This document shows, in pieces, positions 12,708 through 28,992 of a stretch of 32,185 nucleotides of DNA. The number at the start of each line of letters is the position of its first letter. The first letter of the stretch is position 1. The position numbers and the translations under genes are program-made. The stretch is from Planctomycetota bacterium (GTDB lineage: Bacteria > Planctomycetota > B15-G4 > JADJEK01): positions 60,644 through 92,828 of the forward strand of contig JACQZJ010000055.1 of assembly GCA_016213895.1 (NCBI GenBank), written 5' to 3'. The notes beneath the pieces were generated by a model. The model was given only the letters and a program-made list of their open reading frames with translations. It did no database searches and had not been told where the DNA came from.

Positions 12708-12825
12708 GGCAGGGCCTCCGTGGAACGGTGGGCATCAGTCTAAACGGGATGGGATCCGGAGGGGAAGGGGCCGGAGAGAGGAGCGTCGCAGCCGCTTCTC
12801 CGGGGCCGGGGGCGGCTGCGCAACA

Positions 12826-12970
12826 ACCGGTGCATCGAGTGCGCGAGGAACGAGGAGCGGCTCGTCAAGGTGAAGGCGATGCTCGCGGTTCTGCGGCCTG
12901 AGGTAGGAGCGGGGTGAAGTGGTACGAAGTTGCGGCCGCCCCCTTTCCCGGAGAAACGCTGCTCCGCTTC
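12826..12970 (+). repeat. Left half of interspersed repeat (copy A), interrupted by insertion sequence
   Basis: This segment matches 28717-28861 with scattered substitutions and few indels. Shared blocks include GGTGCATCG, GAACGAGG, GGCTCGTC, AGGCGATGC, GTGGTACGA and GCTCCGCTTC. A 29-codon frame starting CGG TGC ATC at 12828 aligns without gaps to the other copy and ends at the same TGA (12915-12917). Similarity stops abruptly at 12970, where the insertion sequence begins. Confidence 0.8.
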
Positions 12971-12971
12971 T

Positions 12972-12986
12972 ATGGGGAGGCCGGCC
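12972..12986 (+). repeat. Left (transposase 3'-side) inverted repeat of the insertion sequence
   Basis: ATGGGGAGGCCGGCC is the exact reverse complement of 14694-14708. It begins one or two bases inside the left junction with the interrupted repeat. Confidence 0.88.
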
Positions 12987-13456
12987 CTGTCAAGAGGAAA
13001 GTCTGGGGATGCGTAGACCTCCTTCTTGGGGCGCTGGTCTGTTTCGGGGAACCGCCGCGTGAGGAAGCCGTGAGCCGTTCTGCTCCGGCGCGTGGGCGCA
13101 GAGCTGCCGCTTCGCCCGCCGAGCGCGCCCCTGCAGCGCTCGGCGAGGCGGGCGAAGCGGCCCGGCGCACGACCATGCCCCTGCAGGGTCAGGCGGAGGC
13201 CCGCAAGAACCGCAGGAGAGGAAGAGAAGGGAGGGACGATCCCGGCCATGCTTCTATCCGCAGTCGGACCGTGGTCCGCTGCAAGTTGTGGTCCGGTGAA
13301 GGCGGGTGCTGCAATCTCCATACCACGGCTTCGTGTGGCCAGCGGAGCAGGCGCAGTCACCCGGACTCTTCGATGGGATCGTCGTCTCTTTTTCACGCAG
13401 GGGAGTGGTCGCAGCGCGACCACGTTAGTTGGTAGTTCCTGACGGGATGTTTCAGT
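12987..13456 (-). ncRNA. Candidate bridge/seeker RNA region of the insertion sequence
   Basis: Between the transposase stop and the left inverted repeat there are 470 nt with no credible gene. In IS1111-type elements this is where the structured guide RNA for target choice is encoded. Several hairpins are visible: a perfect 8-bp stem GTGGTCGC/GCGACCAC (13405-13423) just after the transposase; two GTGGTCCG units near 13271 and 13289, the first inside the palindrome-like GGACCGTGGTCC; and a long stem at 13106-13161. The most likely RNA body is about 13250-13430, close to the transposase, but its ends cannot be set from sequence alone. The location is family knowledge; the RNA itself is inferred. 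Confidence 0.45.
13106..13161. other. Long perfect-stem hairpin within the insertion sequence
   Basis: The arms GCCGCTTCGCCCGCC (13106-13120) and its reverse complement (13147-13161) pair over 15 bp. A further 6 bp, GAGCGC with GCGCTC (13121-13126 and 13136-13141), stack above a five-base bulge GGCGA, closing a 9-nt loop. It could be part of the guide RNA, a barrier to read-through, or a separate palindromic element. Confidence 0.7.
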
Positions 13457-14617
13457 TCACGCGCTCTGGACGCTCGGGCTGGACTGCTCGGCCGTGATCC
13501 TGGCGGCGGTCTTCGTTTTTGCGCGGTTCGGCGGCCTCGACGCCATCTGCGCAGCCTGCTTCTGGTGCAGCTTCGCCACGTGGTGGGGGTCGAACACCTC
13601 GCCCGTGATCCACAGGCGGTGCATGAGCACGGCGAGCCGGCGCGCGACGGCGACCTTGGCGCGCTTCCTGGCGTTCTTGCCGCCGTGCTCCATGAGGGCC
13701 AGGCCGAAGCTCCTGAGGTCCCAGTCGGCGCTCCGCGGGTGGAGGACGCTGTTCGCGCACTGGACCAGGAGCGAGCGCAGGCGTACGTCGCCGGCCTTGG
13801 TGATGCGCAGCTGCGGGCGCTGCTCGCCGGAGTCTCCGGACCCCGGCGCCAGGCCGACGTAGGCGCCGACCGTGCGGCTCTTGGGGAAGCGGTGCGGATC
13901 CTCCACGGTCAGGACGAAGGCCAGCGACGTGACCGGGCCGATGCCCGGGATCTCCTCGGCGAAGCGCTGTGCGATCGGGTAGCGCTTGGCGGTGATCCTG
14001 GAAAGCCTCCGGTCGCACGCGGCGATGGCGCGGGTCAGCTCGCGGATGGTCCGCAGCAGGGGCAGGACGATGCGCAGGAGCTCGCGCGGCAGGTCCTTGG
14101 CGGCGCGCTGCGCGAAGTTGTCCGCCTCGCAGTCCTGGATCCTGCCACCCAGAGGCTTGACCAACCCGCGCACGCAGTTGATCAGGGTGGTGCGCGTCCC
14201 GACCAGCGCACCGCGGGCACGCAGCTGCATCAGGTCACGGTGCGTCTCGCGCGACCGGAAGCGTACCGTGTTCAGGTAGCCCGCAGGCAGGAAGCCGGCC
14301 ATGGCGAGGCGCCGCGCGTCCTCGCGATCGGTCTTCTTCCTCCCCTGCGTGCGCGGGTCGCGCGGATCCACGATCAACACATCGTGGCCAAGGGCGGTGA
14401 GTTCGTCACGGATCCAGAGCGTGTGGGTGCCCGCCTCCACTACCACCCGCAGCGGCTTGAACTTGGCGAACCACGCCCGGAACGCGTCCTGGTTGTTTTT
14501 GACCGTGTCTTCGAGCATGACCTCGCCCGGCTCGCTCATGACGCAGATGCGCGAAGATTTGTCGCTGACGTCCACACCCGCCACCGAACCCTGAAACTCG
14601 AAGCTAGAATCGACCAT
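13457..14617 (-). CDS. IS110-family DEDD transposase (recombinase)
   Basis: This is a 386-residue RNA-guided recombinase of the IS110 family, which excises its element as a circle and inserts it at a site chosen by a bridge RNA. The N-terminal RuvC-like domain has the full DEDD set: Asp16 (GVDVSD), Glu61 (VEAGTHT), Asp97 and Asp100 (KTDREDARRL). The C-terminal Tnp domain contains a helix-hairpin-helix IPGIGPVTS (223-231) and YVGLAPGSGDSGEQR, in which Ser263 is the expected catalytic serine. The ATG at 14617 has AAGGAGA eight bases upstream. The gene is intact, so the element may still be mobile. The C-terminal tail is basic and probably disordered. Confidence 0.93.
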   Translation of the reverse strand: MVDSSFEFQGSVAGVDVSDKSSRICVMSEPGEVMLEDTVKNNQDAFRAWFAKFKPLRVVVEAGTHTLWIRDELTALGHDVLIVDPRDPRTQGRKKTDREDARRLAMAGFLPAGYLNTVRFRSRETHRDLMQLRARGALVGTRTTLINCVRGLVKPLGGRIQDCEADNFAQRAAKDLPRELLRIVLPLLRTIRELTRAIAACDRRLSRITAKRYPIAQRFAEEIPGIGPVTSLAFVLTVEDPHRFPKSRTVGAYVGLAPGSGDSGEQRPQLRITKAGDVRLRSLLVQCANSVLHPRSADWDLRSFGLALMEHGGKNARKRAKVAVARRLAVLMHRLWITGEVFDPHHVAKLHQKQAAQMASRPPNRAKTKTAARITAEQSSPSVQSA

Positions 14618-14693
14618 GAGGCTGGTCTCCTTCTGCACTCGACGAGTGCGCATGAACTGCTTGCAGACGCGACAGCGTACTGCGTCACGCGGA

Positions 14694-14708
14694 GGCCGGC
14701 CTCCCCAT
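14694..14708 (-). repeat. Right (transposase 5'-side) inverted repeat of the insertion sequence
   Basis: On the minus strand this reads ATGGGGAGGCCGGCC, identical over 15 bases to 12972-12986. It lies about 20 bases inside the inferred right junction. Confidence 0.88.
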
Positions 14709-14732
14709 CACATCTCCCCATCACATCTCCCC
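14701..14732. repeat. Tandem 13-bp repeat at the right end of the insertion sequence
   Basis: CTCCCCATCACAT occurs twice in a row (14701-14713 and 14714-14726), followed by a partial third unit CTCCCC (14727-14732). The first unit overlaps the right inverted repeat. Confidence 0.85.
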
Positions 14733-14862
14733 TCGGGCGCCGTCTCGGTGCTCACGGTCGAGGCGGGCCGCTCCGGTTCAACCCACCTGCGGTAGGCGGT
14801 CGCGGGCGGGATAGGAGCCCGCTCCCGCCCCAGAATGATGCACCGCGCGGGGACGCGTGCAG
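14727..14862 (+). repeat. Right half of interspersed repeat (copy A)
   Basis: This matches about 28862-28992. The best blocks are GTCGAGGCGGGCCGCTCCGG, GGCGGTCGCGGGC, AGCCCGCTCCCGCCCC and GGACGCG. It keeps the GCGGGC/GCCCGC hairpin with a different loop (GGGATAGGA here, AAAA in the other copy) and a bulged form of the second hairpin. The next hundred bases, up to the end of the ATPase gene at 14964, show nothing I can identify. Confidence 0.78.
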
Positions 14863-28626: not shown

Positions 28627-28716
28627 TCGCGGCTGTTTGGCTGGGAGCCGGAGGGAGGGGACGTGAGGCGAGCGATCGCGGCCGTTTCCCTGGCCTCCGG
28701 GGCCGACCGCGCGACG

Positions 28717-28992
28717 CCCGGTGCATCGCGTGCGCGACGAACGAGGGGTGGCTCGTCGAGACAGAGGCGATGCGGGCGGTTCAGCGATACGAGGTACGCG
28801 AGGCGTGAGTGGTACGAGCGTCGCGGGCCGGCCCCTGCGCCAGGGAAACGCCGCTCCGCTTCCCAGCGCGCCGTCCCGAGGCTCGCGGTCGAGGCGGGCC
28901 GCTCCGGGTCAACGTACTTGCGGAAGGCGGTCGCGGGCAAAAGCCCGCTCCCGCCCCGGAATGAGTGCACGGCGCAAGGACGCGCCGTGCGA
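28717..28992 (+). repeat. Interspersed intergenic repeat, uninterrupted copy B
   Basis: This about 275-bp unit is the intact counterpart of the split copy at 12826-12970 plus 14727-14862. Its left part contains the 29-codon frame that begins CGG TGC ATC (28719) and ends at TGA (28806-28808). Its right part contains two strong hairpins: GCGGGC-AAAA-GCCCGC (28933-28948) and GCACGGCGC-AAGGAC-GCGCCGTGC (28967-28990). It occupies most of the 409-nt gap between the HEAT-protein gene and comM. I see nothing else in that gap. Confidence 0.8.

Follow-up and report, generated by a model that had tools for sequence, protein, structure and literature searches.

A Planctomycetota IS1111-group insertion sequence with a predicted guide RNA, inserted at one position of a dispersed repeat

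The element and the repeat that it interrupts

The window that we analysed, a stretch of 32,185 nucleotides of Planctomycetota DNA, carries an insertion sequence with a DEDD recombinase, set inside one copy of a dispersed repeat of about 290 bp, while a second copy of the repeat is uninterrupted (Table 1). Both recombinase domains, PF01548 (DEDD) and PF02371, exceed the curated cut-offs, and in a PDB search the C-terminal part of the protein resembles IS621 and ISCro4. The initial annotation had noticed perfect 15-bp inverted repeats; these are indeed perfect, but their position is sub-terminal rather than terminal. Their length lies inside the range of about 7-17 bp spanned by the sub-terminal inverted repeats of IS1111 elements (PMC11208160), and the ends, AGATGTG + ATGGGGAGGCCGGCC ... 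GGCCGGCCTCCCCAT + AGA, are exactly as the IS1111 convention has it, with 7 bp lying beyond these repeats on the left and 3 bp on the right (PMC11187229). The non-coding region of 488 bp, with the predicted guide RNA, lies downstream of the recombinase, and the layout is therefore that of IS1111, unlike IS110. On its recombinase domains and the anatomy of its ends, the element is assigned to the IS1111 group of the IS110 family, which bears out its first description as IS110/IS1111-like. Near its 3' end, a TTGACA, with TTGAC at the equivalent place in most relatives, could act as a -35 box once the element ends join.

Table 1. Features of the element, its predicted RNA and its target repeat (positions in the window)
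Feature	Position	Strand	Basis
IS1111-group insertion sequence, 1747 bp	12969..14715	- (recombinase strand)	junctions from filled versus empty repeat copies
Recombinase (DEDD transposase), 398 aa	13457..14653	-	PF01548 1.4e-16, PF02371 1.6e-20; PDB matches
Sub-terminal inverted repeat, window-left arm (element 3' end)	12972..12986	+	15/15 complementary to 14694-14708
Sub-terminal inverted repeat, window-right arm (element 5' end)	14694..14708	-	15/15 complementary to 12972-12986
3-bp extension AGA outside inverted repeat	12969..12971	-	sequence and junctions; IS1111 convention (PMC11187229)
7-bp extension AGATGTG outside inverted repeat, element-side core included	14709..14715	-	sequence and junctions; IS1111 convention
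Target-side CT core	12967..12968	+	last bases common to filled and empty sites
Element-side CT core	14714..14715	+	flank starts after CT at all five right junctions, bar the 13-bp extra here
Extra 13-bp copy of element end (CCCCATCACATCT)	14716..14728	+	tandem repeat; only in this copy
TTGACA, candidate -35 box of a promoter formed at the circle junction	12988..12993	-	sequence; putative promoter role
Predicted bridge/seek RNA, target-binding loop then donor-binding loop	13239..13369	-	covariance model E 3.2e-24, this sequence itself being among the model's 15; conserved fold
Left target guide CUGCUCCGCU	13341..13350	-	10/10 identical to left target, core included
Right target guide GGAG, pairs with [CT]CC	13316..13319	-	homology to relatives' right guide slot
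Left donor guide CACAACU	13284..13290	-	6/7 to element end CACATCT; read against relatives
Right donor guide AUAGAAG	13251..13257	-	identical to element 3' end plus core
Left half of target repeat	12780..12968	+	alignment to 28.7 kb
Right half of target repeat	14729..14862	+	84% identity to 28868-28984
Uninterrupted (empty) repeat copy	28670..28984	+	alignment

The repeat had been described as continuous near 28.7 kb, and this holds: its halves at 12826-12968 and 14729-14862 align with 28718-28984 at 78% and 84% identity, and once joined they give a single alignment of 322 columns at 78%, with similarity reaching out to about 12780 and 28670. Both proposed junctions had to be moved. The break had been placed after GCTTC, at 12970, and actually falls at 12968/12969, two bases further left, because the TC at 12969-12970 is part of the element, and its agreement with the 28.7-kb copy is fortuitous. 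Similarity had been thought to resume near 14727, whereas it does so at 14729; the element ends at 14715 and what follows is an extra copy of its end. The resulting 13-bp tandem duplication (14703-14728), bounded by CTCCCC on both sides, is missing from the four other right junctions; either slippage or core-to-core recombination would fit.

In the whole genome, 79 matches to the repeat sum to 14.9 kb, or 0.27% of the assembly, and the copies often stand in tandem or half-unit clusters. The sister species has 59 matches and two other genomes of the family one weak match each; among the genomes searched, the repeat is confined to this genus. It carries a conserved GC-rich hairpin and short terminal inverted repeats (CGGTGCAT..ATGCACCG), and has a MITE-like look. 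We considered the repeat as a structured RNA and found this unsupported, as its fold is not more stable than that of shuffled sequence (z 0.42) and covariation is almost absent from its consensus fold (-0.35 kcal/mol). Both copies in the window are intergenic, which suggests that the repeat could be a "safe" site.

Junctions, empty sites and the core

The assembly of the source genome comprises 5.5 Mb in 218 contigs. Searched with the element, it yielded one complete copy, that of the window, and 12 partial copies (75-148 bp) that with few exceptions lie at contig ends, as is usual when a multicopy element has collapsed in the assembly. At least nine copies are present in the genome. As contigs stop inside the element, the other copies are visible at their ends only, and left and right junctions were counted separately. 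All nine left junctions (contigs C17, C39, C43, C64, C72, C99, C104, C128 and C199) lie within the repeat, at AAACGCyGCTCCG[CT] followed directly by TCTATGGGG; the junction sequence in nine of nine is AAACGC(T/C)GCTCCGCT then TCTATGGGGAGGCCGG. The five right junctions (C39, C94, C115, C166 and C211) show CCTCCCCATCACATCT and then the flank, which in four is the other half of the repeat. At C211 the right flank lies outside the repeat; the left side of this locus (L002 / L207, G000:C211) is unassembled, and the locus may be a repeat copy with the left half only or a different site. C43 and C94 hold diverged relatives (84% and 89% identical) at the same insertion site. Given that the repeat makes up so little of the assembly, and yet takes nine of nine left and four of five right junctions at one position, this distribution is not due to chance (for the left junctions, a probability of about 8e-24). 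The search for further copies, proposed in the initial annotation, thus showed them to share both their ends and their position in the repeat, and the target does sit within a dispersed repeat; the source genome showed neither non-adjacent repeat halves nor copies with unrelated flanks and different ends.

Defining the empty site as AAACGCyGCTCCGCT with up to a few mismatches, we counted about 48 intact empty sites in the genome. Most read GCTCCGCTC; the base after the core is variable, being C in 41 of the 48 and T in four, the 28.7-kb copy among them. Filled and empty sites agree through CT and the right junctions leave from CT, so that the core is CT and the element has the limits given in Table 1. 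Insertion is therefore site-specific with a short core, as in the IS110 family, and the comparison of filled with empty sites does read the target core, as had been anticipated, with a matching guide in the predicted RNA. The repeat at 28.7 kb had been offered as a natural empty site, and it is an empty copy, but as a paralogue it is not the pre-insertion site. A better one is found in the sister species (G001:C61), where at the matching locus an uninterrupted repeat adjoins the same ABC-transporter gene, across which the two genomes, draft assemblies like all those compared, are 92% identical. Targeting is not absolute, since at least one end of a related element in the sister species falls outside the repeat. 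Two related-element ends there, L205 (G001:C418:24643) and L206 (G001:C274:5431), are some 30-70 bp away from repeat copies and may belong to a single off-target insertion that landed between tandem repeats, one end at either side of it.

The predicted guide RNA in this element and its relatives

The left target guide of the predicted RNA reproduces the final 10 bases of the left target, with its end precisely at the core, and occurs in 0.35% of simulated regions of the same composition. The right target guide agrees with the CC that follows the core at the four right junctions of the main element; against the flanks of its own element, only about two bases fit beyond the core. The right guide also matches GTGGT in one flank, but we dismissed this match because its register does not agree with the core. 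Taken together, the predicted guides match both sides of the target and both donor ends, core included, as in a bridge RNA or seekRNA, the right guide being short. RNA guides of this design are known in IS110/IS1111 elements (PMC11187229, PMC11208160). Rfam at gathering thresholds gave no match in the window.

Among 392 genomes of the phylum, recombinase relatives occur in 17 besides the source genome, most at 35-46% identity, and a genome collection gave one more (L044). Most relatives, at least 15, have the predicted RNA in their 3' region. In the alignment of 15 RNA sequences, 94.5% of cells are paired and 9 of 17 pairs show double changes, against 86.5% and 2.3 pairs in shuffled alignments, and none of 500 shuffles reached the observed values. 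With guide slots placed by eye from conserved anchors, the left guide matches cognate flanks at a mean of 7.3 positions and non-cognate flanks at 4.1 (cognate ranked first in 12 of 14; permutation p 5e-5), and the right guide at 5.9 and 3.6 (permutation p 5e-5). In 18 of 19 elements the right donor guide equals the element's own 3' end, and six distinct guide sequences are represented (p 1e-5). The covariance model led to further RNAs, and in five held-out elements the left guide matches its own flank at 7.1 positions against 4.1 for the flanks of others (exact p 0.008), even if in two of the five another element's flank matches equally well or better. On these alignments, target and donor guides change in step with each element's own flanks and ends. 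One relative (L162, G167:C16) has GT/AC as its core in place of CT/AG, a switch shared by the left and right guides, the donor guide and the two ends; another (L187) has TGGACG in its donor guide and in its end. In the sister genome, the covariance model found no RNA, the element copies there probably being cut at contig ends. Strong matches to the RNA model also lie mid-contig in two places, L189 (G011:C1) and L190 (G072:C67), where no recombinase was found nearby; these could be remnants, non-autonomous copies or orphan RNAs.

The many copies of the target also give a natural readout of specificity. At position -7, the guide has U and the repeat T or C. A perfect 10-nt match to the guide is present at seven of nine filled but only 11 of 48 empty sites (Fisher p 0.003), or at seven of eight filled sites when the diverged C43 is dropped (p 0.0009); the two other filled sites each depart from the left guide at one base, and one of these holds C43, whose own guide is not visible. 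The right flank starts with CC at four of four sites of the main element versus 21 of 48 empty sites. The exact 10-mer is filled at 7 of 19 places inside the repeat, and is empty at all 26 distinct places outside recognised repeats, so that the left guide alone is insufficient. CC follows the core at only four of these 26, two of the four looking repeat-like. Left guide, core and CC may account for the preference for the repeat, to which selection against genic insertions may add. The suggestion that the element specialises in a multicopy site agrees with these counts and with the nine left junctions.

Proposed mechanism, alternatives and known systems

We consider it very probable that the best explanation is an IS1111-group element steered to the repeat by an RNA guide from its own 3' non-coding region, on the basis of the ends, the core, the common site, the 10-nt guide match, the conserved RNA fold and the co-variation of guides in relatives. 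In this model, an RNA transcribed from the 3' non-coding region would be bound by the DEDD recombinase and direct it. The target loop, through CUGCUCCGCU, would match CTGCTCCG[CT] in the intergenic repeat of about 290 bp, and the short right guide would contribute the preference for CC after the core. The donor loop would pair with both element ends across the circle junction, predicted to be CCCCATAGA-AGATGTGATGGGG, and recombination at the CT core would then insert the circle, leaving CT at each side. By analogy with the family, the element would have a circular intermediate, and would be mobile and active at present.

Three other explanations were weighed. The common position could go back to one event, a single insertion that spread by duplication or homologous recombination of the element-bearing repeat. 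The element copies are identical over the stretches visible, and the frequent tandem clusters of repeats make recombination plausible, but among themselves the nine left flanks are as divergent as the empty repeat copies, a diverged relative occupies the same site (C43, C94), and targeting is needed to explain why the guide matches and why perfect sites are enriched; we regard such a spread as very unlikely. Slightly less probable still is that protein or DNA structure lets the recombinase find its site, much as hairpins are recognised, the guide match being incidental. Conserved hairpins in the repeat speak for such recognition, and the exact 10-mer, filled at none of the 26 outside places, does ask for something beyond the left guide; however, with CC after the core so rare at these places, left guide, core and right guide may suffice, guides track flanks in relatives with unrelated targets, and RNA guidance has been proven in the family (PMC11187229, PMC11208160).

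Random insertion, with survivors only in the intergenic repeat through selection, has next to no probability in our view. It would agree with the intergenic position of both window copies, but selection cannot put nine junctions on the same base, which refutes it as a full explanation; selection may nevertheless act alongside targeting.

IS110/IS1111 recombinases are under development as programmable DNA-insertion tools. The 18 relatives in which guides could be compared with the element's own flanks and ends form a natural reprogramming series in which one is core-switched, and a single genome in which one target exists in nine filled and 48 empty forms gives base-exact ends and core as well as a natural readout of mismatches. 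In the seekRNA paper, the lack of uninterrupted targets was said to limit the fixing of ends and targets (PMC11187229). It is a tentative proposal, to which we give slightly less than an even chance, that the window element and its relatives represent an undescribed IS1111 branch with right target guides of about 6-7 nt and a core reprogrammed in nature (L162), for which, in the source genome, the genus-specific repeat serves as a harbour with possibly about half of the predicted left guide/core/CC sites filled.

Dispersed-repeat targets are known for IS1111/IS110 elements, namely ISPa11, IS621 and ISPpu10 (PMC11187229, PMC11208160). ISPa11, of the IS1111 group, targets the REP of Pseudomonas aeruginosa (PMC11187229), and like the window element it has the IS1111 layout, a downstream non-coding RNA and a fixed place in a dispersed repeat; it differs in guide and target, a short REP palindrome as compared to a repeat of about 290 bp seen in one genus only. 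IS621, of the IS110 group, targets REP in Escherichia coli (PMC11208160). It shares with the window element the CT core, the order of target loop then donor loop, guides that include the core and a dispersed-repeat target, but its RNA lies upstream of the recombinase, and its right target guide has four bases, whereas in relatives of the window element the fit to the right flank extends over about 6-7 bases. ISKpn4 and ISPst6, of the IS1111 group, target attC sites (PMC11187229); they resemble the window element in their IS1111 layout, in a seekRNA derived from the non-coding region and in a top-strand match 5' of the bottom-strand match, and differ in that their target is the attC site of integrons. 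RNA-guided insertion and the targeting of repeats are thus known features of these families, and what sets this case apart is how good the natural data set is, together with the relative whose core is switched.
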